Shown: piece after piece, positions 1,531 through 30,609 of the stretch
How positions within the stretch are numbered: position 1 is the stretch's first letter
Layout of the letters: each line of letters opens with the position of its first letter
From: Acidobacteriota bacterium
Lineage (GTDB): Bacteria; Acidobacteriota; UBA6911; RPQK01; JAJDTT01
Assembly: GCA_028874215.1 (NCBI GenBank)
Contig: JAPPLF010000055.1
Span: forward strand, 1-40,680
Length of the DNA: 40,680 bases
Reading direction: 5' to 3'
Translations under genes and position numbers: made by a program
Notes under the pieces: model-generated
The model's database searches: none
Seen by the model: the letters and a program-made list of their open reading frames with translations, nothing else
What the model was told of the DNA's origin: nothing

Positions 1531-3042
1531 ATGCGTCGTCTATGGGCTATGGATAACCTTGAAGCAATCGCACAGCTTCCCTCTGGCTCTGTTGCGCTTG
1601 CGTACCTCGATCCCCCGTTCAACTCTGGGCGTTCATACGACACAGTCGTGACGATGTCGCGACAGTCGGGGCGAGAGATCCAGTCGGCATTCTCTGACAG
1701 TTGGCGTTGGTCCAGCGATACCGGAAGACTTGCTCAAAGCCTAGACCAGTGGCTTCCCAAGTCGGCGGTAAGCATCGTGAATACATTGGTCACCACACTC
1801 GGGAAGACCGACATCTCAGCATACCTTGTCATGATGGCGCCGCGCTTGGCCGAAGTACACCGCTGCCTCCGAGAAGAAGGATCCGTCTATGTACACTGTG
1901 ACCCGGCAGCGAGCCACTATCTGAAGGTGCTACTCGACCACCTCTTCGGTCCAGAGAATTTTCGAAACGAGATTATTTGGAAGAGAACCCACGCCCACAG
2001 TAGCTCCAAACGCTACGGACCAGTTCACGATACGATCTTGTTCTATACGAAGAGCCCCAGGTACACGTGGAACCGAGTATTCTCGAAGTACAGCAAAGCG
2101 TATCTCAAAAAGAATTTTAGAAACTCAGACGAGCGGGGCAAGTACCAGCTCATCACCTGTACGGCACCAGGCGATCGGACGGGAACCCGGGCGCACTACC
2201 GCTGGCGAAACCAGTGGCCTCCTCCCGGTCGCCACTGGGCCTGGAAGCGTGAGCAGATGGAGGCTTTCGACAAACAGGGTTGCATTGAGTATTCCTCGAA
2301 CGGCATACCTCGTTTGAAGCGCTATATCGACGACGGACAAGGTGTTGCGGTTCAGGACATTTGGCTGGATATCAACCGACTCGACTCTCACTCGGCAGAG
2401 AGAGTTGGTTTCGAGACACAGAAGCCGCTTGCGCTCCTTGAGCGTCTCATTAGCGCTAGCTCCAACAAGGGAGATACCGTCCTGGATCCATTCGCAGGAA
2501 GCGGAACAACGGCAGTCGCGGCCGAGCGACTAGGGCGGAAATGGACCATAGTCGATGAGTCCTTGATGTCTTGCGCCATCGCACTTGCACGAGTGCGGCA
2601 GGATGTGAATTTGGAAGCCGTTTCCTTGAAAGGATTTCCGGAGGATTCGCGTTCGGCGCGGGCTCTGTTGCGATCGGAGCCCTTTGCCTTTGGGATTTGG
2701 GGGTCTTCGATGCTCGCAACTCTTCCGAGCCGTAGAGAAACGAATTATGAAGTCGTCACTGGAAGTGGCAATCTGACAGTCAAGTCGCGTCGCATCGAGC
2801 TCATTAGCTGGGTGCCTCTACGCTCCCTCGTCGAGGTTCCCGTGCCTCCCTCAAGTCGACGGCGACTTGCGAAGCTTGGACTAATCCTGCGCCATGGCCG
2901 ATCCGCAGCGACTGCTCGCCGGTGGCTTGAACAACAAGTCTCTGTACCGTTGCATGAGATTGATCTCAACCATCTTGTTGAGCCCGAAGCATTGAATCGC
3001 GGAATCTCCCCACGGCTTGCCGAACTAGTCCACCTGGGATGA
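1531..3042 (+). CDS. Beta-class DNA N4/N6 methyltransferase
   Basis: A 503-residue site-specific DNA methyltransferase that transfers a methyl group from S-adenosylmethionine to an exocyclic amino group (adenine N6 or cytosine N4). The catalytic motif IV, DPPF, is at residues 27-30, and the cofactor motif DPFAGSGTT starts at about 319. This order (IV before I) defines the beta class. The central 150-310 segment should include target recognition. About 160 residues after motif I match nothing I recognise. Its last codon overlaps the next start (ATGA at 3039-3042), so the two methyltransferases are translationally coupled. G+C is lower than in the rest of the window, which suggests transfer. 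DPPF favours adenine N6, but N4 cannot be excluded. Confidence 0.9.
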   Translation: MRRLWAMDNLEAIAQLPSGSVALAYLDPPFNSGRSYDTVVTMSRQSGREIQSAFSDSWRWSSDTGRLAQSLDQWLPKSAVSIVNTLVTTLGKTDISAYLVMMAPRLAEVHRCLREEGSVYVHCDPAASHYLKVLLDHLFGPENFRNEIIWKRTHAHSSSKRYGPVHDTILFYTKSPRYTWNRVFSKYSKAYLKKNFRNSDERGKYQLITCTAPGDRTGTRAHYRWRNQWPPPGRHWAWKREQMEAFDKQGCIEYSSNGIPRLKRYIDDGQGVAVQDIWLDINRLDSHSAERVGFETQKPLALLERLISASSNKGDTVLDPFAGSGTTAVAAERLGRKWTIVDESLMSCAIALARVRQDVNLEAVSLKGFPEDSRSARALLRSEPFAFGIWGSSMLATLPSRRETNYEVVTGSGNLTVKSRRIELISWVPLRSLVEVPVPPSSRRRLAKLGLILRHGRSAATARRWLEQQVSVPLHEIDLNHLVEPEALNRGISPRLAELVHLG

Positions 3043-4253
3043 TGGTAGTCGACCACGTGTCCGGGAAGCTCAGTCAGCTTGACCAGGAAGTTGTCCGGGC
3101 CGTTCCTCCAGGCGGGAATTGGAGGAATTTGCCAGAGGACTTTAAATCTGCACGCGTCCAGCAGATTCGGAAGAGCGCAAAGCAAGGCGGCGGAAGTCGC
3201 AGTACGTACTACGGACGGCTTCGCTGGGACTCTCCTAGCTACACTATCTCTACCTACTTCAATCGTCCAGGGAACGGGTGCTTCATTCATCCGGAGGCTA
3301 ATCGGCTTATCACTGTCAGAGAGGCTGCTCGACTGCAGAGCTTTCCGGACTGTTATCGGTTCTTCGGTCGAGGACGTGCTCGCTACATCCAGGTTGGCAA
3401 TGCGGTTCCCCCGTTACTGGCCTACAACATTGCGGCTGTGCTTGAGCCTGGGCCGATGGTGGACCTCTTCGCGGGAGCAGGCGGACTCTCACTTGGGTTC
3501 GAGAGCGCAGGGTTCTCTGTGCTGGCTAGTGTTGACAACGACCCTGCCGCCACCGCGACGTACCAACTGAATCGTCCGTCAAAAGAACTGGTGCTCCGTA
3601 AAGATCTCTCAGACCCCCGCAATTTCGACTATACCATCAAGGAAATCCGACGACGTGCCGGGCAGGACGGCGTTCAAATGGTAGCAGGCGGTCCTCCTTG
3701 CCAGGGATTTTCGACTGCTGGCAATCTTCGATCGCATGACTCGCGGAATGGGTTGGTTTATGCCTTCTTGGAGGCGGCGAAGGCCCTCAGACCACGCTAC
3801 GCATTAATGGAAAACGTGCCGGCACTTTCCTATCGACGACATGCCAAAACGCTCCGCGAGATCCGCCGTTCTTTCCACGATTTCTCGTACTCTACATCAG
3901 TCATGATCGCCCACGCAGAGGCCTACGGTGTGCCACAGCGGCGCCGCCGACTCTTCCTACTGGCCTCCCGAGATCATGGAGATCTTCCGTGGCCTCAGCC
4001 CGAATTTTGCCCTTTGCCCCCATCCCAGCTTCGATTACAACCAGGAGCCCTTGATGCTCGAGACGCGCCACATGGTTTCAGCGTTTCAGATGCGATCGGA
4101 GACCTTCCCTTGACTGATGTGGCAGACCCGGAAATCGAGGTTGCATATGCGAAGCCTGCCGTTTCGAAGTTCCAGCAATGGGCGCGCGGCGACATCCGTT
4201 TAGAGTGTCTCGCCAAACCTCGCGCGGTTTCTTCATATCCATCATTGTTTTGA
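3039..4253 (+). CDS. Circularly permuted C5-cytosine DNA methyltransferase
   Basis: A 404-residue 5-methylcytosine methyltransferase with motifs in permuted order. Motif IX (RLITVREAARLQSFPD, residues 89-104) and motif X (VGNAVPP, 119-125) come first. Motif I follows (DLFAGAGGLSLGF, 142-154), then motif IV with catalytic Cys221 (GGPPCQGFS), motif VI ENVP (258-261) and motif VIII (PQRRRR, 299-304). The first residues (DHVSGKLSQLD...PPGGNWRNLP) match the segment that normally follows the recognition domain, and the C-terminus stops where that segment would begin, so the break is clean. M.BssHII is a known permuted example. All catalytic motifs are intact, so activity is expected. It overlaps the N-methyltransferase by 4 bases and is followed after 19 bases by the nuclease-like gene. 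Confidence 0.9.
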   Translation: MMVVDHVSGKLSQLDQEVVRAVPPGGNWRNLPEDFKSARVQQIRKSAKQGGGSRSTYYGRLRWDSPSYTISTYFNRPGNGCFIHPEANRLITVREAARLQSFPDCYRFFGRGRARYIQVGNAVPPLLAYNIAAVLEPGPMVDLFAGAGGLSLGFESAGFSVLASVDNDPAATATYQLNRPSKELVLRKDLSDPRNFDYTIKEIRRRAGQDGVQMVAGGPPCQGFSTAGNLRSHDSRNGLVYAFLEAAKALRPRYALMENVPALSYRRHAKTLREIRRSFHDFSYSTSVMIAHAEAYGVPQRRRRLFLLASRDHGDLPWPQPEFCPLPPSQLRLQPGALDARDAPHGFSVSDAIGDLPLTDVADPEIEVAYAKPAVSKFQQWARGDIRLECLAKPRAVSSYPSLF

Positions 4254-4272
4254 CGACTATTGGGAGTGCGAA

Positions 4273-5580
4273 GTGCTGCCGGTCGATCGATCCGACATCC
4301 TAAAGGAAGGGCTCAATGCACTCAGTCAATTTGCGCAAACAACGAGCGTACGGGGTCGCTTTATCGCGCTGTATTTGGGCCTCCGTCGTATGCTCAAGTT
4401 TCGGGCGGCGGGCCATACTATTCTCCACCATCTTGGTAGCAAAGGCGCAACTCCAAGTCGAGCAATCGAGGATTTTCTCGATCGGCTGTATACGAAGACG
4501 CATAGACCTGAGCCCTTCGTTGTTCTGACAGCGCCATTCGGTGGCAGCACATCTCCTGAAGCTCCATATAGTACCCTCACGAACGTTCTGGCTCCCGGAC
4601 GAAGGTATCCAACCAACACTTGGCGCAATAACTTCGGGATACAGAAAGGTGTAGGCTGCCCAGCAGAACCAGACATCATAAGCCGTCTGTTAGACAGTCC
4701 CCAGCGGCGATTGGCCTGCCAACACATGTCCATGGATGAGGGAGGACGGCACCATTGTCGCCTCAGAAGCACATCCTATCGGGGTGAGGAACACTCAATT
4801 TGGATGCGAGTAGCTCCGGACGGTTACCAGATAACAGATCTTGACCACCCAGCCGTCCACACGGACTACCTCCGGCCACATGGGAAAACCATACCGATCT
4901 TTCCTCTCATTTCAGTGCTCTACAGCTTTGCTCCTGCGGGAGTGTATCCGGCTAGAAACCGCGTCGGAATCCCGGACTTCGCTTCGGATTTCGGTTTCAC
5001 CCTTGAGCAGGTTGAGGCACTGTTCGATTGCGACCCTCAAGCGCAATACAACACCAGGGTGGTATCTCTCGTATTTGATGCGGACCTCGGCCGATCCGAG
5101 CGGCATCACGATATGCCGCCGGTGCAGGCTGCTGCCCCGCGCCCTTCTGATTTGATGCAGTCTGCTGTGCCACTCCCACCTGCACCGGTGGCCGCGACAG
5201 TCAATACTGGTGTTGGAGCCGAGTTGTTGGTAGCTAAGGATCTCCTACGCCAAGGGTGGGATGTACTGTACAGAGGCAACCAACATGGAATTGGTTACGA
5301 TCTAGAAGCGCGGCGAGGCAGCCAAACCTTACGGTTGGAGGTAAAATCATCTGTCGCTTTCACATATCCGGAACTCCAGTCGTCAGAGTGGAGTGCTGCG
5401 CAACGCTATCAAGACACGTTCGTGCTAGCCGTGGTTGACTTCTACGGGTCCAACAAGCCTCGAATCTGGTATGTGAGGAATCCGGCAGCCAACACTGCAC
5501 CGGTAGCGCGCAATTTAGTCATTTTCCGGCTCAGTCGTTTTGATTTAGAGTCACTCAGTATTGACGCTGATTTCTTATAA
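4273..5580 (+). CDS. Putative restriction endonuclease, PD-(D/E)XK C-terminal domain
   Basis: A 435-residue protein with a GTG start. The N-terminal 300 residues are not recognised. It contains a compact segment RYPTNTWRNNFGIQKGVGC that could belong to DNA recognition. A Pro/Ala-rich linker (about 282-312) leads to a C-terminal domain at about 315-420 with the nuclease pattern: Glu in VGAELLVAKDLL, Asp343 in GIGYDLEA, and Glu356-x-Lys358 in LEVKSS. This resembles the DUF3883/Mrr-like PD-(D/E)XK group that cuts DNA with Mg2+. As last gene of the methyltransferase operon it is the natural restriction partner. The assignment rests on the active-site pattern and position; the recognition site and cleavage are unknown. 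Confidence 0.7.
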   Translation: MLPVDRSDILKEGLNALSQFAQTTSVRGRFIALYLGLRRMLKFRAAGHTILHHLGSKGATPSRAIEDFLDRLYTKTHRPEPFVVLTAPFGGSTSPEAPYSTLTNVLAPGRRYPTNTWRNNFGIQKGVGCPAEPDIISRLLDSPQRRLACQHMSMDEGGRHHCRLRSTSYRGEEHSIWMRVAPDGYQITDLDHPAVHTDYLRPHGKTIPIFPLISVLYSFAPAGVYPARNRVGIPDFASDFGFTLEQVEALFDCDPQAQYNTRVVSLVFDADLGRSERHHDMPPVQAAAPRPSDLMQSAVPLPPAPVAATVNTGVGAELLVAKDLLRQGWDVLYRGNQHGIGYDLEARRGSQTLRLEVKSSVAFTYPELQSSEWSAAQRYQDTFVLAVVDFYGSNKPRIWYVRNPAANTAPVARNLVIFRLSRFDLESLSIDADFL

Positions 5581-6097: not shown

Positions 6098-7084
6098 ATG
6101 AGACATCGAGCACGAATTGGATTTCTAGTGACGGTTGCCCTTTTGCTGGTGTTCTCGGCGCCGGCCTGCGGGCCGGCGGCGGACGAGGACGGCCGCCTGA
6201 AGATCGCCGGGATGTTCATGCAGGAGGACCAGTTCTTCCGTCTGGTCCGGTTCGGAATGCAGCAGGCCGCCAAGGAGGAGGGTGCCGAGCTGCTGCTCTC
6301 CACCGTGGACGGCAAGCCGGAAAAGGAGCTCCAACTCGTCAACACCTACATCGCCCGGCAGGTGGATGGCATCGTCCTTTCGCCCCTGAGCGCCACTGCC
6401 TCGGTCACGGCTCTGCGGCGGGCCCACGACGCCGGAATCCACGTCGTCGCCTACAACTCCACCGTGGAGGGCGGACTTCCGGCCGCCTTCATCGAGAGCG
6501 ACCAGTCCGACTTGGGCTCCCAGACCGGAGAGGCGGCCCGCACATACATCGAGGAGAAACTGGGCGGACAGGCCCAGATCGCCATTCTGGCCTTCAAGTC
6601 GGCGCTGACGGAGCAGAGCGAAGCCCGGACCAACGGTTTCAAGAGCCGGGTCACCGATCTGCCCGGAGTCGAGATCGTGGCCGAGCAGGATGCCTGGCTG
6701 CCGGAGATGGGTATCCGCAAGGCGGGCGACATCCTCACGGCCAATCCCGGGATCGACCTGATCTGGTGCGCCAACGAGGGGGGAACGGTGGGCGCCGTCA
6801 TGGCGGTCAAGAGCGCCGGACGGGGAGGCGAGGTCGTCGTCTTCGGGACCGACGTGAGCGACCAGATGCTTGGTTTCCTCCTGGCGGAGGACGAGATTCT
6901 GCAGGCCGTCACCGGCCAGAAGCCCTTCGAAATCGGCTACCAGTCCGTCAAAGCGGCCGTCGCCGTGATCCAGGGGAGGGAAGTCGAGAGCCACGTCTCC
7001 ATGTCCGGGGTGTTGCTTGAGCGCAGGGATCTCGAGATCGTTCGCGCCTACCGGGCCCGGCTCCAGGAACTCATCGCCAACTAA
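6098..7084 (+). CDS. Sugar ABC transporter substrate-binding lipoprotein (RbsB-like)
   Basis: A 328-residue periplasmic-binding-protein-like domain of the ribose/galactose class that captures a sugar outside the membrane and delivers it to the permease. The N-terminus is a signal sequence ending in a lipobox-like SAPAC, so it is probably a lipoprotein. The mature part has the typical opening (LKIAGMFMQEDQFFRLVRFGMQQAA), the DGIVLSPLS segment and VVAYNSTV. ATG 6098 is preferred over GTG 6092 because it directly precedes the basic MRHRAR start. The ATPase gene begins 2 bases after its stop, so the three transporter genes form one operon. The substrate cannot be told from the sequence. Confidence 0.9.
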   Translation: MRHRARIGFLVTVALLLVFSAPACGPAADEDGRLKIAGMFMQEDQFFRLVRFGMQQAAKEEGAELLLSTVDGKPEKELQLVNTYIARQVDGIVLSPLSATASVTALRRAHDAGIHVVAYNSTVEGGLPAAFIESDQSDLGSQTGEAARTYIEEKLGGQAQIAILAFKSALTEQSEARTNGFKSRVTDLPGVEIVAEQDAWLPEMGIRKAGDILTANPGIDLIWCANEGGTVGAVMAVKSAGRGGEVVVFGTDVSDQMLGFLLAEDEILQAVTGQKPFEIGYQSVKAAVAVIQGREVESHVSMSGVLLERRDLEIVRAYRARLQELIAN

Positions 7085-26785: not shown

Positions 26786-26913
26786 GATGGTTCGGGATGG
26801 TAGTTTCCGCACGCGGGCGAGTCAAGGCGCACCGCCCTCGATTGACTCGGCGCCGGAGGGGGCGAAACAATGCGGACCGGACGACGCTGACACCGGAGTT
26901 TCTGGAGGCGTGG

Positions 26914-27738
26914 ATGGTGGGGGATCGCCGGTTGCCTTCTGCCCTGGACCGCTGGCCGCGGATTCGGGATCGGCTTCAGGCCCGCCGGCTGCTGCTTTTT
27001 CTGTCCTACGACGGAGCGCTGGCCCCCCTGGTCTCCCGGGAGGACATGGCGGTGCTGTCCCGGGGAATGAAGGAGGCGCTCCGCCAATTGGCCGGCCTTT
27101 GCCCCACGGTGATCGTGAGCCGGCGGGGACGACAGGACCTGGCCTCCATGGTGGATATCGACGGCCTCTATCACGCCGGCAGCGACGGGTTGGATTTCTC
27201 GGGACCGGGACTGAGGGGCGGGTCGCGGGCCAAGGTGGAGTGGGTGCGGCAGGTTCGCTCCCTCGCGGCCGACCTGGTCCAGGCGTTCCTGGGAACCGAC
27301 GGTGTCCTGGTGGATCCCAGGGACGTTTCCCTGGGCCTCCAATTGGATCCGGCCGCCCGGGCCCGCTCCCCTGAAATAGAGCGCATTCTCGATTCGGTTC
27401 TCAGGGGATATCCTCGCCTGCAGAAGATCCGTGACCGGGATGGTCTGCTGGTGCGGCCCCGTTTGGAATGGGATCGGGGAAGGGCGGCCACGCGGATCGC
27501 GGCCGAGTTGGCGCCGTCCGGAACCGGACGGATCCCCCTTTACGCGGGGACGCACCCGGCCGACGAGACGGCCTTTCATGCGCTGAGCGCAGAGGGGCTG
27601 ACCCTCGTCGTGGGCGGGGCCGGATCGGCCACCGCGGCCCACTATCAGCTTCAAAACCCGGTCGAATTGGAGTCCTTTCTCTTTCGTCTCTCGGACCTTG
27701 TTCGAGGGACTGAAGAGGTATCGCGGCGGGGGAATTGA
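26914..27738 (+). CDS. Trehalose-phosphatase-like protein without catalytic residues
   Basis: A 274-residue homologue of OtsB, the HAD-family phosphatase that makes trehalose from trehalose-6-phosphate. The scaffold is clear (LPSALDRW, VIVSRRGRQDLASMV, YHAGSDGLDFSGPG, QLQNPVELESFL). The catalytic signature DxDGTL is changed to SYDGAL: Ser31 replaces the nucleophile Asp, and Asp33 remains. The metal motif GDDxTDE is changed to GTHPADE (212-218), losing both Asp ligands. It is expected to be catalytically dead and may bind sugar phosphate as a sensor or have a new role. ATG 26914 with TGGAGG 6 bases upstream was preferred to 26797, which would overlap the divergent promoter. It lies 1 base before the dehydrogenase gene. 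Confidence 0.8.
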   Translation: MVGDRRLPSALDRWPRIRDRLQARRLLLFLSYDGALAPLVSREDMAVLSRGMKEALRQLAGLCPTVIVSRRGRQDLASMVDIDGLYHAGSDGLDFSGPGLRGGSRAKVEWVRQVRSLAADLVQAFLGTDGVLVDPRDVSLGLQLDPAARARSPEIERILDSVLRGYPRLQKIRDRDGLLVRPRLEWDRGRAATRIAAELAPSGTGRIPLYAGTHPADETAFHALSAEGLTLVVGGAGSATAAHYQLQNPVELESFLFRLSDLVRGTEEVSRRGN

Positions 27739-27739
27739 C

Positions 27740-28723
27740 ATGCGGGCCATGATCCTGAGGCGGCCGGGGACGAGCCTGGAGCCGGTGGACCTGCCGCCCC
27801 TGCACCCGGGACCGGGGCAGGTGCGCGTCCGGGTGCGGGCCTGCGCCGTGTGCCGCACGGACCTGCACGTGGTGGACGGAGATCTGACCGGCACCAAGCT
27901 GCCCATCATCCCCGGGCATGAAATCGTGGGAGAAGTGGCCGAGTTGGGTCCCGCAGTGCGGCGGCACTCCGTCGGGGACCGGGTCGGAATCCCCTGGCTG
28001 GGATGGACCTGCGGGCAGTGCGGCTACTGCCGTTCGGACCGGGAGAATCTCTGCGAACGGGCCCGGTTCACCGGGTATACATTGAACGGAGGCTACGCCG
28101 AAGAGGTCGTGGCCCACGAGCGCTACTGCTTTTCGTTGCCGCCGGAGTACTCGGACATCGAGGCGGCCCCCCTCCTGTGTGCCGGCCTCATCGGCTACCG
28201 GTCGTTGGTCATGGCCGGCCCGGGACGGCGTCTGGGCCTCTACGGGTTCGGCGCGGCCGCCCATATCGTCGCCCAGGTGGCCCGGCACCAGGGCAGAAGC
28301 GTCTACGCCTTCACCCGTCCCGGCGATGGGACGGCACAGGATTTCGCCGTGTCCCTGGGGGCGGTCTGGGCCGGGGGTTCGCAACGGATGCCCCCTGAAC
28401 CGCTGGATGCCGCCATCATCTTCGCCCCGGTGGGTCCGCTGGTGCCGCTGGCTCTCGAAGCCGTGGACAAGGGTGGAATCGTGGTCCTGGGCGGAATCCA
28501 CATGAGCGACATTCCGTCGTTTCCCTACCGCCTGTTGTGGGAGGAACGCCGGCTCTGTTCGGTGGCCAATTTGACCCGGAAGGACGCAGCGGAGTTCCTG
28601 GAGGTGGCCCCGCGGGTGCCGGTGCGCACCGAGACCGAGACGTTTGCTCTCGCCGAGGCCAACGAAGCCCTCCGCCGTTTGGCGCAGGGCGAGCTGGATG
28701 GAGCCGCGGTGCTGGTCCCTTGA
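27740..28723 (+). CDS. Zinc-dependent alcohol dehydrogenase family protein
   Basis: A 327-residue medium-chain dehydrogenase. The catalytic zinc site is at CAVCRTD and GHEIVGE, the structural zinc site at CGQCGYCRSDRENLC, and the NAD(P)-binding fold at LGLYGFGAAAHIVAQVA. It oxidises an alcohol, possibly a sugar alcohol, or reduces an aldehyde. It starts at ATG 27740 one base after the stop of the trehalose-phosphatase-like gene, so the two are co-translated and likely act together. Subfamily resemblance is to AdhA-type bacterial enzymes; the substrate is unknown. Confidence 0.9.
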   Translation: MRAMILRRPGTSLEPVDLPPLHPGPGQVRVRVRACAVCRTDLHVVDGDLTGTKLPIIPGHEIVGEVAELGPAVRRHSVGDRVGIPWLGWTCGQCGYCRSDRENLCERARFTGYTLNGGYAEEVVAHERYCFSLPPEYSDIEAAPLLCAGLIGYRSLVMAGPGRRLGLYGFGAAAHIVAQVARHQGRSVYAFTRPGDGTAQDFAVSLGAVWAGGSQRMPPEPLDAAIIFAPVGPLVPLALEAVDKGGIVVLGGIHMSDIPSFPYRLLWEERRLCSVANLTRKDAAEFLEVAPRVPVRTETETFALAEANEALRRLAQGELDGAAVLVP

Positions 28724-28851: not shown

Positions 28852-30609
28852 ATGTCATATCAGGTGGGGGCCGATTCGATAGCTCGTTTCACCGGACCCG
28901 GCGCATTGGGAGCCATCCCGCATACGTCGAGGCTCGGATCGTTTGGATGGTTGTTGATTCTGCTACTCTCCACGGGATCGATGACAGCCGAGCCGCAACC
29001 ACAGCTCCTCCCTCATCATGAGGAACTGGCTCCGGGGGTTCACGCCGCCGGGTTCTCCCACCAATTCGCCAGCGCCAACTGCGGATGGGTGGAGTTGGAC
29101 GGGGAGACCCTGTTGGTCGACCTGCCCAGAGGCCGATCCGTTGAGGCCTATCTGGACCGGGTCACGGCTCAAGGAAAGCGGCCCGCGCGGCTTCTGGTAT
29201 TGACCCACATCTGGGAGGATTCGTCCTGGGCGACCTATTCGGCCTACGAACCGGTGGAAAAGCGCTGGTACCGCTCTCCCGAACCCATGGGACCGGACGC
29301 GATCGCTCCTCTGGTCGGCGCGCTGATCAAGGGAGGCGTCAAGCAGATCGTCACCTCTCCCAAGATTCGCCAGCGTTTGTTGGGCAAGATGCCGGATCTG
29401 GATCCGTCCATGGTGACGGCCCTGTCGAGTCCGGGCTTCGTTGGAGACTCCGCCCGGTCGATCCGGTTCCTGCCGCTGGACGGAGTCTGGGACGAGGGAG
29501 CCGGAGCTCTCTATCTGCGGAAGGAAAAAGTCCTTTTCGGCGGCCCCCTGGTCATGAACGGCATCCGGTTCCATCCGGATGGGAAGGACACCGCGGCCTG
29601 GATCGAGGTTCTGGACCGCCTCCATGACCTGGGCGCGCGAGAGGTCGTACCGGGCTTCGGTTCCTGGACCGGGACCAACATGCTGGGGCGTCTCCGCGAC
29701 CTGCTGGCGGAGCTCCGGGACGAGGTCGCCTACGGGATCGCCATTGGATACTCCCTGGCCGAGGTCCAGAAGTATGTCCGGATTCCCGACGGGCTCCAGT
29801 ATTGGACCACCCATTCGCGCCCCAGAGACCCACAGATCGCCCATGTCTATCGGGAGCTCACGGTCCCCAATGCTCCCTTCCACGGTCGTCCGCCCCGGCC
29901 CGGCGACTCCGGTCCCCATGCGCTGGTCCTGATCGGGGACAGTCCCCATCCACCGGCGCCGATCCGGAAGGCGTTGGCAATGGTATTCCAGGCCACCGGC
30001 GTGACTCCCCACTTCACGGTGGACGTGAACGCCCTGTCGGCGGAAAACCTGTCCCGGGTCCAGTTGCTGGTCATTCTGCGGGACGGCCGCCAGGTGGAGC
30101 GCAAAGGGGAGGGCCGGGAGCCGTTGCGGGTTCTGGTGGATCCCCTGCATGGGGAGATCAAGACCTGGGTGACCCTGGAACAGGAGCGGGCGGTGGTGGA
30201 TTTCGTGGAGAAGGGCGGCTCCTTCCTGAATCTCCACAACTCGCTGGGGCTCTATCCTCCCGCCGGACCCTACTTGAAGCTGGTGGGAGGACGTTACATC
30301 GGGCACGGACCCTATGAGCGCTTCCGCGTCGAGGTGGTGGACCCGGATCATCCCATCACGGAGGGCGTCAGCGACTACACGACCGCCGACGAGCAGCACT
30401 CGCCGGTCATCTACGACGAGAGCCAGGTCCACATGATCCTGGAGAGCCGGATGGACAACGGAATCGCGGTCCCCGCCGGCTGGGTCCGCGAGGCCGGGAA
30501 GGGCAGAGTCTGCCACCTGGCCGGCGGCCATCCGGCCGAACCGCTGTTTCACCCCATGTACCAGCGCTTGATGAAGAACGCCGTCCGCTGGTGCCTTCGG
30601 GCCGAGTGA
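28852..30609 (+). CDS. Metallo-beta-lactamase-fold pseudoenzyme fused to a ThuA-like domain
   Basis: A 585-residue exported protein (AGGAGG 6 bases before the ATG; signal helix at about 30-46). Residues 55-310 have the layout of a metallo-beta-lactamase fold, but the T-H-x-H-x-D-H zinc motif reads THIWEDS (118-124), GGD is GGP and the later GHG is GFG, so the metal site is lost. Residues about 350-580 form a ThuA-like domain of the glutamine-amidotransferase-like class (VEKGGSFLNLHNSLGLY, LVGGRYIGHGPYERF, VVDPDHPITEGV, GKGRVCHLAGGHP). ThuA proteins act in trehalose and related sugar 3-oxidation pathways. The only well-preserved domain is therefore the ThuA part. Confidence 0.8.
   Translation: MSYQVGADSIARFTGPGALGAIPHTSRLGSFGWLLILLLSTGSMTAEPQPQLLPHHEELAPGVHAAGFSHQFASANCGWVELDGETLLVDLPRGRSVEAYLDRVTAQGKRPARLLVLTHIWEDSSWATYSAYEPVEKRWYRSPEPMGPDAIAPLVGALIKGGVKQIVTSPKIRQRLLGKMPDLDPSMVTALSSPGFVGDSARSIRFLPLDGVWDEGAGALYLRKEKVLFGGPLVMNGIRFHPDGKDTAAWIEVLDRLHDLGAREVVPGFGSWTGTNMLGRLRDLLAELRDEVAYGIAIGYSLAEVQKYVRIPDGLQYWTTHSRPRDPQIAHVYRELTVPNAPFHGRPPRPGDSGPHALVLIGDSPHPPAPIRKALAMVFQATGVTPHFTVDVNALSAENLSRVQLLVILRDGRQVERKGEGREPLRVLVDPLHGEIKTWVTLEQERAVVDFVEKGGSFLNLHNSLGLYPPAGPYLKLVGGRYIGHGPYERFRVEVVDPDHPITEGVSDYTTADEQHSPVIYDESQVHMILESRMDNGIAVPAGWVREAGKGRVCHLAGGHPAEPLFHPMYQRLMKNAVRWCLRAE

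Follow-up and report, generated by a model that had tools for sequence, protein, structure and literature searches.

Pseudoenzymes derived from trehalose-phosphatase (TPP) have been described in fungi. TslA of Aspergillus fumigatus lacks the TPP catalytic residues; it binds chitin synthase physically and modulates its activity (PMC5405227). By analogy, TslA is an earlier example of an unrelated enzyme being regulated by a protein that stems from TPP and lacks the catalytic residues. Mycobacterium tuberculosis has two TPP homologues, and TPP activity is expressed by OtsB2 only (PMC11046441). The residues on which catalysis depends are documented for the Brugia malayi enzyme (T6PP), where the metal ligands are Asp213, Asp215 (through its main chain), Asp424 and Asp428 and replacement of the nucleophile (D213A) abolishes activity (PMC4081830).

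Here we consider a TPP-like protein encoded by a 40,680-nucleotide stretch of DNA (the window) from an Acidobacteriota bacterium. It is very probably a pseudoenzyme, and it probably serves, without catalysis, to bind a ligand or to regulate, as a partner co-expressed with a dehydrogenase.

The locus and its neighbours

The gene is an intact open reading frame of 274 codons by translation, and lies among the following features of the window.

26797 to 26825, reverse strand: promoter-like site (TTGACT-17-TACCAT) that diverges towards the GSDH-type gene of that strand, from a promoter search; kept in the four-species alignment
26842 to 26871, forward strand: sigma-70-like promoter (TTGACT-18-AACAAT) 5' of the TPP-like gene, from a promoter search; TTGACT...ACAAT core in four of four species
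26904 to 26908, forward strand: Shine–Dalgarno sequence GGAGG of the TPP-like gene, read directly from the sequence
26914 to 27738, forward strand: coding sequence of the putative TPP-like pseudophosphatase, 274 amino acids, from translation; PF02358 at 80.2 bits, orthologues in four of four species of the genus
27740 to 28723, forward strand: zinc-binding alcohol dehydrogenase family protein (TIGR02822, 358.8 bits against a cut-off of 283.5; ADH_N, 112 bits)

The Shine–Dalgarno sequence backs a start at 26914. A longer frame from 26797 was rejected because a conserved promoter occupies that region and a one-base indel is present in G002, while GGAGG precedes 26914. The promoter-like sites upstream of the TPP-like gene number two, against 0.2 expected from shuffled sequences.

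The gene is present in all four sequenced species of the genus (G000–G003), with the same neighbours and 74–95% identity, and in none of them is it interrupted by stops or frameshifts. Its stop codon is separated from the dehydrogenase start by a single base (TGA-C-ATG), a junction identical in the four species. The initial annotation, made from this sequence by itself, had described an intact gene adjoining a dehydrogenase, and the reading frame and junction bear this out. The gene order fits translational coupling, and from it we infer a functional link.

Throughout the order the dehydrogenase has orthologues with 63–69% identity, and none of the six orthologue loci examined has the TPP-like neighbour. 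A universal dependence of the dehydrogenase on the TPP-like protein was rejected on these grounds, and the pseudoenzyme probably came to lie before a dehydrogenase that was already there. Given the one-base junction in four of four species, the partnership with the dehydrogenase that had been proposed earlier is plausible, but it is weakened by the occurrence of the dehydrogenase in related genera without this neighbour, so that in general the enzyme does not need such a partner.

Several other observations were made on these genomes. In G003 (L030, about 6375–6450) the dehydrogenase frame is broken near codon 22 and the GSDH-type gene near codon 161; this is a low-coverage MAG and the breaks could be assembly errors. 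The next gene after the dehydrogenase (28852–30609 of the window) is syntenic in all four species. Its C-terminal part is a match to ThuA (PF06283), whereas the N-terminal part has weak similarity to metallo-beta-lactamase-fold models. Elsewhere in the window (1531–5580) two adjacent DNA methyltransferase-like ORFs precede one whose C-terminal end resembles a nuclease, as judged by eye; together they possibly form a restriction-modification system.

Family membership and active-site residues

The protein matches the Trehalose_PPase family (PF02358) with 80.2 bits (E 1.6e-22), above the Pfam cut-off of 27 bits, and scores 60.9 with the NCBI equivalog model TIGR00685, just below the cut-off of 68.05. 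Among proteins of solved structure, OtsB2 of M. tuberculosis is its best match (5gvx; phmmer E 6.8e-26). It is a single-domain protein of 274 residues, with neither a fused TPS-like GT20 domain nor an N-terminal PGM domain. An AlphaFold model calculated with active relatives in the alignment gave a pLDDT of 93.0, and a Foldseek search with this model returned OtsB2 (5gvx) as the top match (E 4.5e-24, TM 0.87) together with 5hus (E 4.7e-11). The four orthologues alone gave a poor model (pLDDT 45.3), so the confident fold depends on the alignment with active relatives. Retention of the fold is thus suggested by homology and conserved residues, and is not an independent result.

Residues were compared in an alignment to 24 intact (active) relatives from the same phylum and the four orthologues.

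27004 to 27021, forward strand: motif I, residues 31–36 (SYDGAL); nucleophile Asp replaced by Ser31 and Thr by Ala35, Asp33 kept; D-x-D-G-T in 24 of 24 active relatives, Ser and Ala in four of four orthologues
27118 to 27126, forward strand: motif II, residues 69–71 (S-R-R); Ser69 kept, Gly70 replaced by Arg, from the alignment
27214 to 27459, forward strand: residues 101–182, approximate cap domain region; Asp134, Arg136 and Asp145 altered and residue 179 variable, from the alignment and predicted secondary structure
27475 to 27477, forward strand: motif III, Lys replaced by Arg188; Lys in 24 of 24 active relatives, Arg in four of four orthologues
27547 to 27567, forward strand: motif IV, residues 212–218 (GTHPADE); of the three Asp only Asp217 remains, followed by the retained Glu218; active relatives read GDDxTDE, the four orthologues T-[HFN]-P-[AT]-D-E

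Positions that are invariant in the 24 active relatives are changed in all four orthologues, both in the core (Asp to Ser31, Thr to Ala35, Gly to Arg70 and His to Asp91) and on the cap side (Glu to Asp134, Lys to Arg136, Arg to Asp145 and Gly to Asp174). The sugar-side residue Glu179, invariant in TPPs, varies among the orthologues. The first Asp of motif IV, present in each of the 24 active relatives, is Thr213 in the four orthologues, and the second is replaced by His, Phe or Asn at position 214. Retained are Asp33, Gly34, Leu36, Arg71, Gly89, Gly92, Gly189, Gly212, Asp217 and Glu218, as well as Ser69, a position occupied by Ser in 21 of 24 active relatives. The cleft residues Ser31, Asp33, Ser69, Arg70, Arg71, Arg188, Asp217 and Glu218 show no variation across the four species.

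The initial annotation held that the nucleophile and the metal ligands had been lost. The altered motifs SYDGAL and GTHPADE that it cited are confirmed, but metal ligation would be damaged rather than fully erased, with two of the three side-chain ligands gone and Asp217 left. Its statement that no catalytic Asp survives is wrong, since Asp33 (the general acid/base) and Asp217 (the third Asp of motif IV) are kept, and it missed the changes of Lys to Arg188, Gly70 to Arg and His91 to Asp. The prediction that orthologues would conserve both replacements while folding residues stay was correct for Ser31 and Thr213, but the His of its 'Thr-His' pair is variable (His, Phe or Asn). Judged from these residues, an aspartyl-phosphate intermediate could not form and TPP activity would consequently be absent.

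Ancestry and selection

Ser31, Ala35, Arg70, Asp91, Arg188 and Thr213 are fixed in all four species; a recent mutation or a sequencing error was rejected because the changes are common to them. Close orthologues with a normal Asp, the refuting case that had been named in advance, did not occur, and Ser31 is found in four of four. Among 136 distinct TPP domain matches in the Acidobacteriota, the phylum covered by our survey, the nucleophile position is Asp in 127, Ser in four and Gly in one, and the remaining four matches lack that stretch of sequence. Ser is limited to the four sequences of this genus. In a separate case (L028, G042:C346) a TPP-like ORF lacks the N-terminal motif I with the rest intact, and the genome carries a second, normal copy.

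In an IQ-TREE phylogeny the four orthologues share a single long branch (1.31) and have active beta-PGM-TPP/OtsB2-like enzymes as their sister group, with support of 97/94. By its sequence the gene is the descendant of an active phosphatase of the OtsB2/beta-PGM-TPP type. One relative (L071) has its TPP fused to a HAD domain and adjoins GH65.

Pairwise dN/dS values of 0.26–0.45 between the four species show statistically that the gene is currently under purifying selection. Values for neighbouring genes are mostly 0.05–0.29, and the TPP-like gene lies somewhat above these. The proposal that the protein is a pseudoenzyme kept by selection, and no recent mutant, is upheld by the shared changes and these ratios. 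Constraint is distributed unevenly along the gene, and one segment stands out.

27100 to 27213, forward strand: residues 63–100, hyper-conserved core segment (strand, motif II loop, helix 73–80 and beta hairpin); amino-acid changes in one of its 38 codons, compared with 95 of the 274 in the whole gene, P = 5e-7 (somewhat overstated, see below)

Mean dN in this segment is 0.006 with dS 0.32. Over residues 30–100, six of 71 codons are amino-acid-variable at a normal level of synonymous change (P 8e-9 versus the gene average; this value and that for 63–100 are somewhat overstated, as the segments were picked after the alignment had been seen). Identity within 63–100 is 97–100% here, compared with 85–90% in two active pairs whose overall identity is like or higher (80–88%). 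Compared with 63–100, the cap, motif IV and the C-terminus are under weaker constraint, and the C-terminal 42 residues (233–274) evolve fast, with a mean dN of 0.26 and dS of 0.55. This pattern suggests that the core has gained a surface or site under strong constraint while motif IV and the C-terminus have loosened; the fast C-terminal residues would also suit partial relaxation.

Possible roles and comparison with known systems

A profile search found no OtsA (PF00982) in G000–G003, and GH65, TreS and TreY were not found in any of these four genomes; the TreS and TreY models gave matches in 13 of 14 control genomes. Since the residues that carry out cleavage are replaced and the trehalose pathway was not found, the present role of the protein is probably in binding or regulation and not in catalysis. 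Without the Asp nucleophile and the Lys it would no longer hydrolyse a substrate, and the cleft may have been turned into a metal-poor site for an anion or metabolite, in which a neutral Ser31 stands in place of Asp. Together with Ser69, Arg70, Arg71 and Arg188 it could form a neutral-to-positive pocket that takes phosphate or another anion without a metal. Opening and closing of the cap in response to a ligand, or the core surface around 63–100, would then regulate or scaffold a partner, the best candidate for which would be the zinc alcohol dehydrogenase whose start codon comes next. We give this statement as a whole, from a metal-poor ligand site to a regulated or scaffolded partner, an even chance. 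The retention of Asp33, Asp217 and Ser69 counts against it, as part of the catalytic set is still there. A more specific version, in which a metal-independent metabolite receptor directly controls the zinc alcohol dehydrogenase as a sensor-enzyme pair outside trehalose metabolism, is rather unlikely.

The protein might alternatively act purely as a scaffold or stability partner, binding the dehydrogenase or another protein through its conserved core, with no small ligand and a vestigial cleft. Such a role would account for the concentration of constraint in one part of the core (63–100) rather than in motif IV or the cap, and for the translational-coupling geometry seen in four of four species. 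Nevertheless, the invariant cleft residues listed above, from Ser31 to Glu218, suggest that the cleft still matters, and we assign this explanation a minor share of the probability. A redirected enzyme, carrying out other chemistry or acting as a weak phosphohydrolase by way of Asp33, Asp217 and water, could draw on the acid/base Asp33, the motif II Ser69 and the Asp217–Glu218 pair, all of which are kept. This is doubtful, however, because the HAD mechanism requires the first Asp as nucleophile, as the inactive D213A mutant of B. malayi illustrates (PMC4081830); in addition, neither the Lys of motif III nor the leading Asp of motif IV is left.

We also considered a decaying OtsB remnant that persists through its position ahead of the dehydrogenase, whose promoter it carries. 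OtsA and other trehalose enzymes were not found in the four genomes, the C-terminal part is fast and the ancestral branch is long, all of which would agree with decay. The selection result disfavours it: four species are free of stops and frameshifts at dN/dS well below 1, residues 63–100 are almost without amino-acid change at a dS of about 0.3, and the cleft substitutions are fixed, not scattered. Decay is accordingly improbable. Least probable of all is the trehalose-6-phosphate sensor of the initial annotation, for although the TPP ancestry would suit it and the cap Glu/Lys pair of the family is matched in charge by Asp134 and Arg136, the pathway enzymes sought (PF00982, GH65, TreS and TreY) were not found in the four genomes and sugar-recognition residues are changed (His91 to Asp, Arg145 to Asp, Glu179 variable), so that such sensing is unlikely and trehalose-6-phosphate is probably not the ligand.

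Under automatic annotation this protein would be named OtsB, ascribing to the organism a trehalose step that searches of its genome did not find. The best matches in sequence and fold are M. tuberculosis OtsB2 (5gvx) and the beta-PGM-TPP fusions of Acidobacteriota, with which the protein has a HAD core and C2B cap in common. Those enzymes are active and carry D-x-D-G-T, Lys and GDDxTDE, whereas the window protein lacks the nucleophile, the Lys and the first two Asp of motif IV. M. tuberculosis OtsB1 (Rv2006), the other TPP homologue of that species, has 1327 residues against 274. A pseudo-TPP of another Acidobacteriota genus (L147; G319:C212:18760-19620, reverse strand) has also lost the nucleophile (VGFDGVL, with GEDVVDD at motif IV). 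It differs in that the loss was independent, with Gly at the nucleophile position and the motif III Lys kept, and in that G319 has a second, normal TPP copy elsewhere. If our reading of the window protein as a non-catalytic partner is true, this stand-alone bacterial case, retained under selection in genomes without a synthase and paralleled at least once independently, by L147, would mean that the TPP fold can be converted to a non-catalytic part.

Among the papers covered, our literature search found no report of a stand-alone bacterial pseudo-TPP, and such a negative does not prove that none exists; a case that lacks a trehalose-6-phosphate synthase altogether appears to be new, although pseudo-TPPs are already known in fungi. 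Fungal Tsl1/Tps3 and A. fumigatus TslA/TslB (C. albicans 5hus) have degenerate TPP domains that serve as regulators, and the window protein is likewise degenerate. The fungal proteins are large and include a TPS-like (GT20) domain, and trehalose synthesis is the setting to which TslA and ScTsl1p belong. The window protein, by contrast, is a stand-alone protein of genomes in which no TPS (PF00982) was found. The likeness is one of analogy only, and the catalytic losses were presumably independent. Beside these fungal regulators, the stand-alone pseudo-TPP offers a small, testable system.
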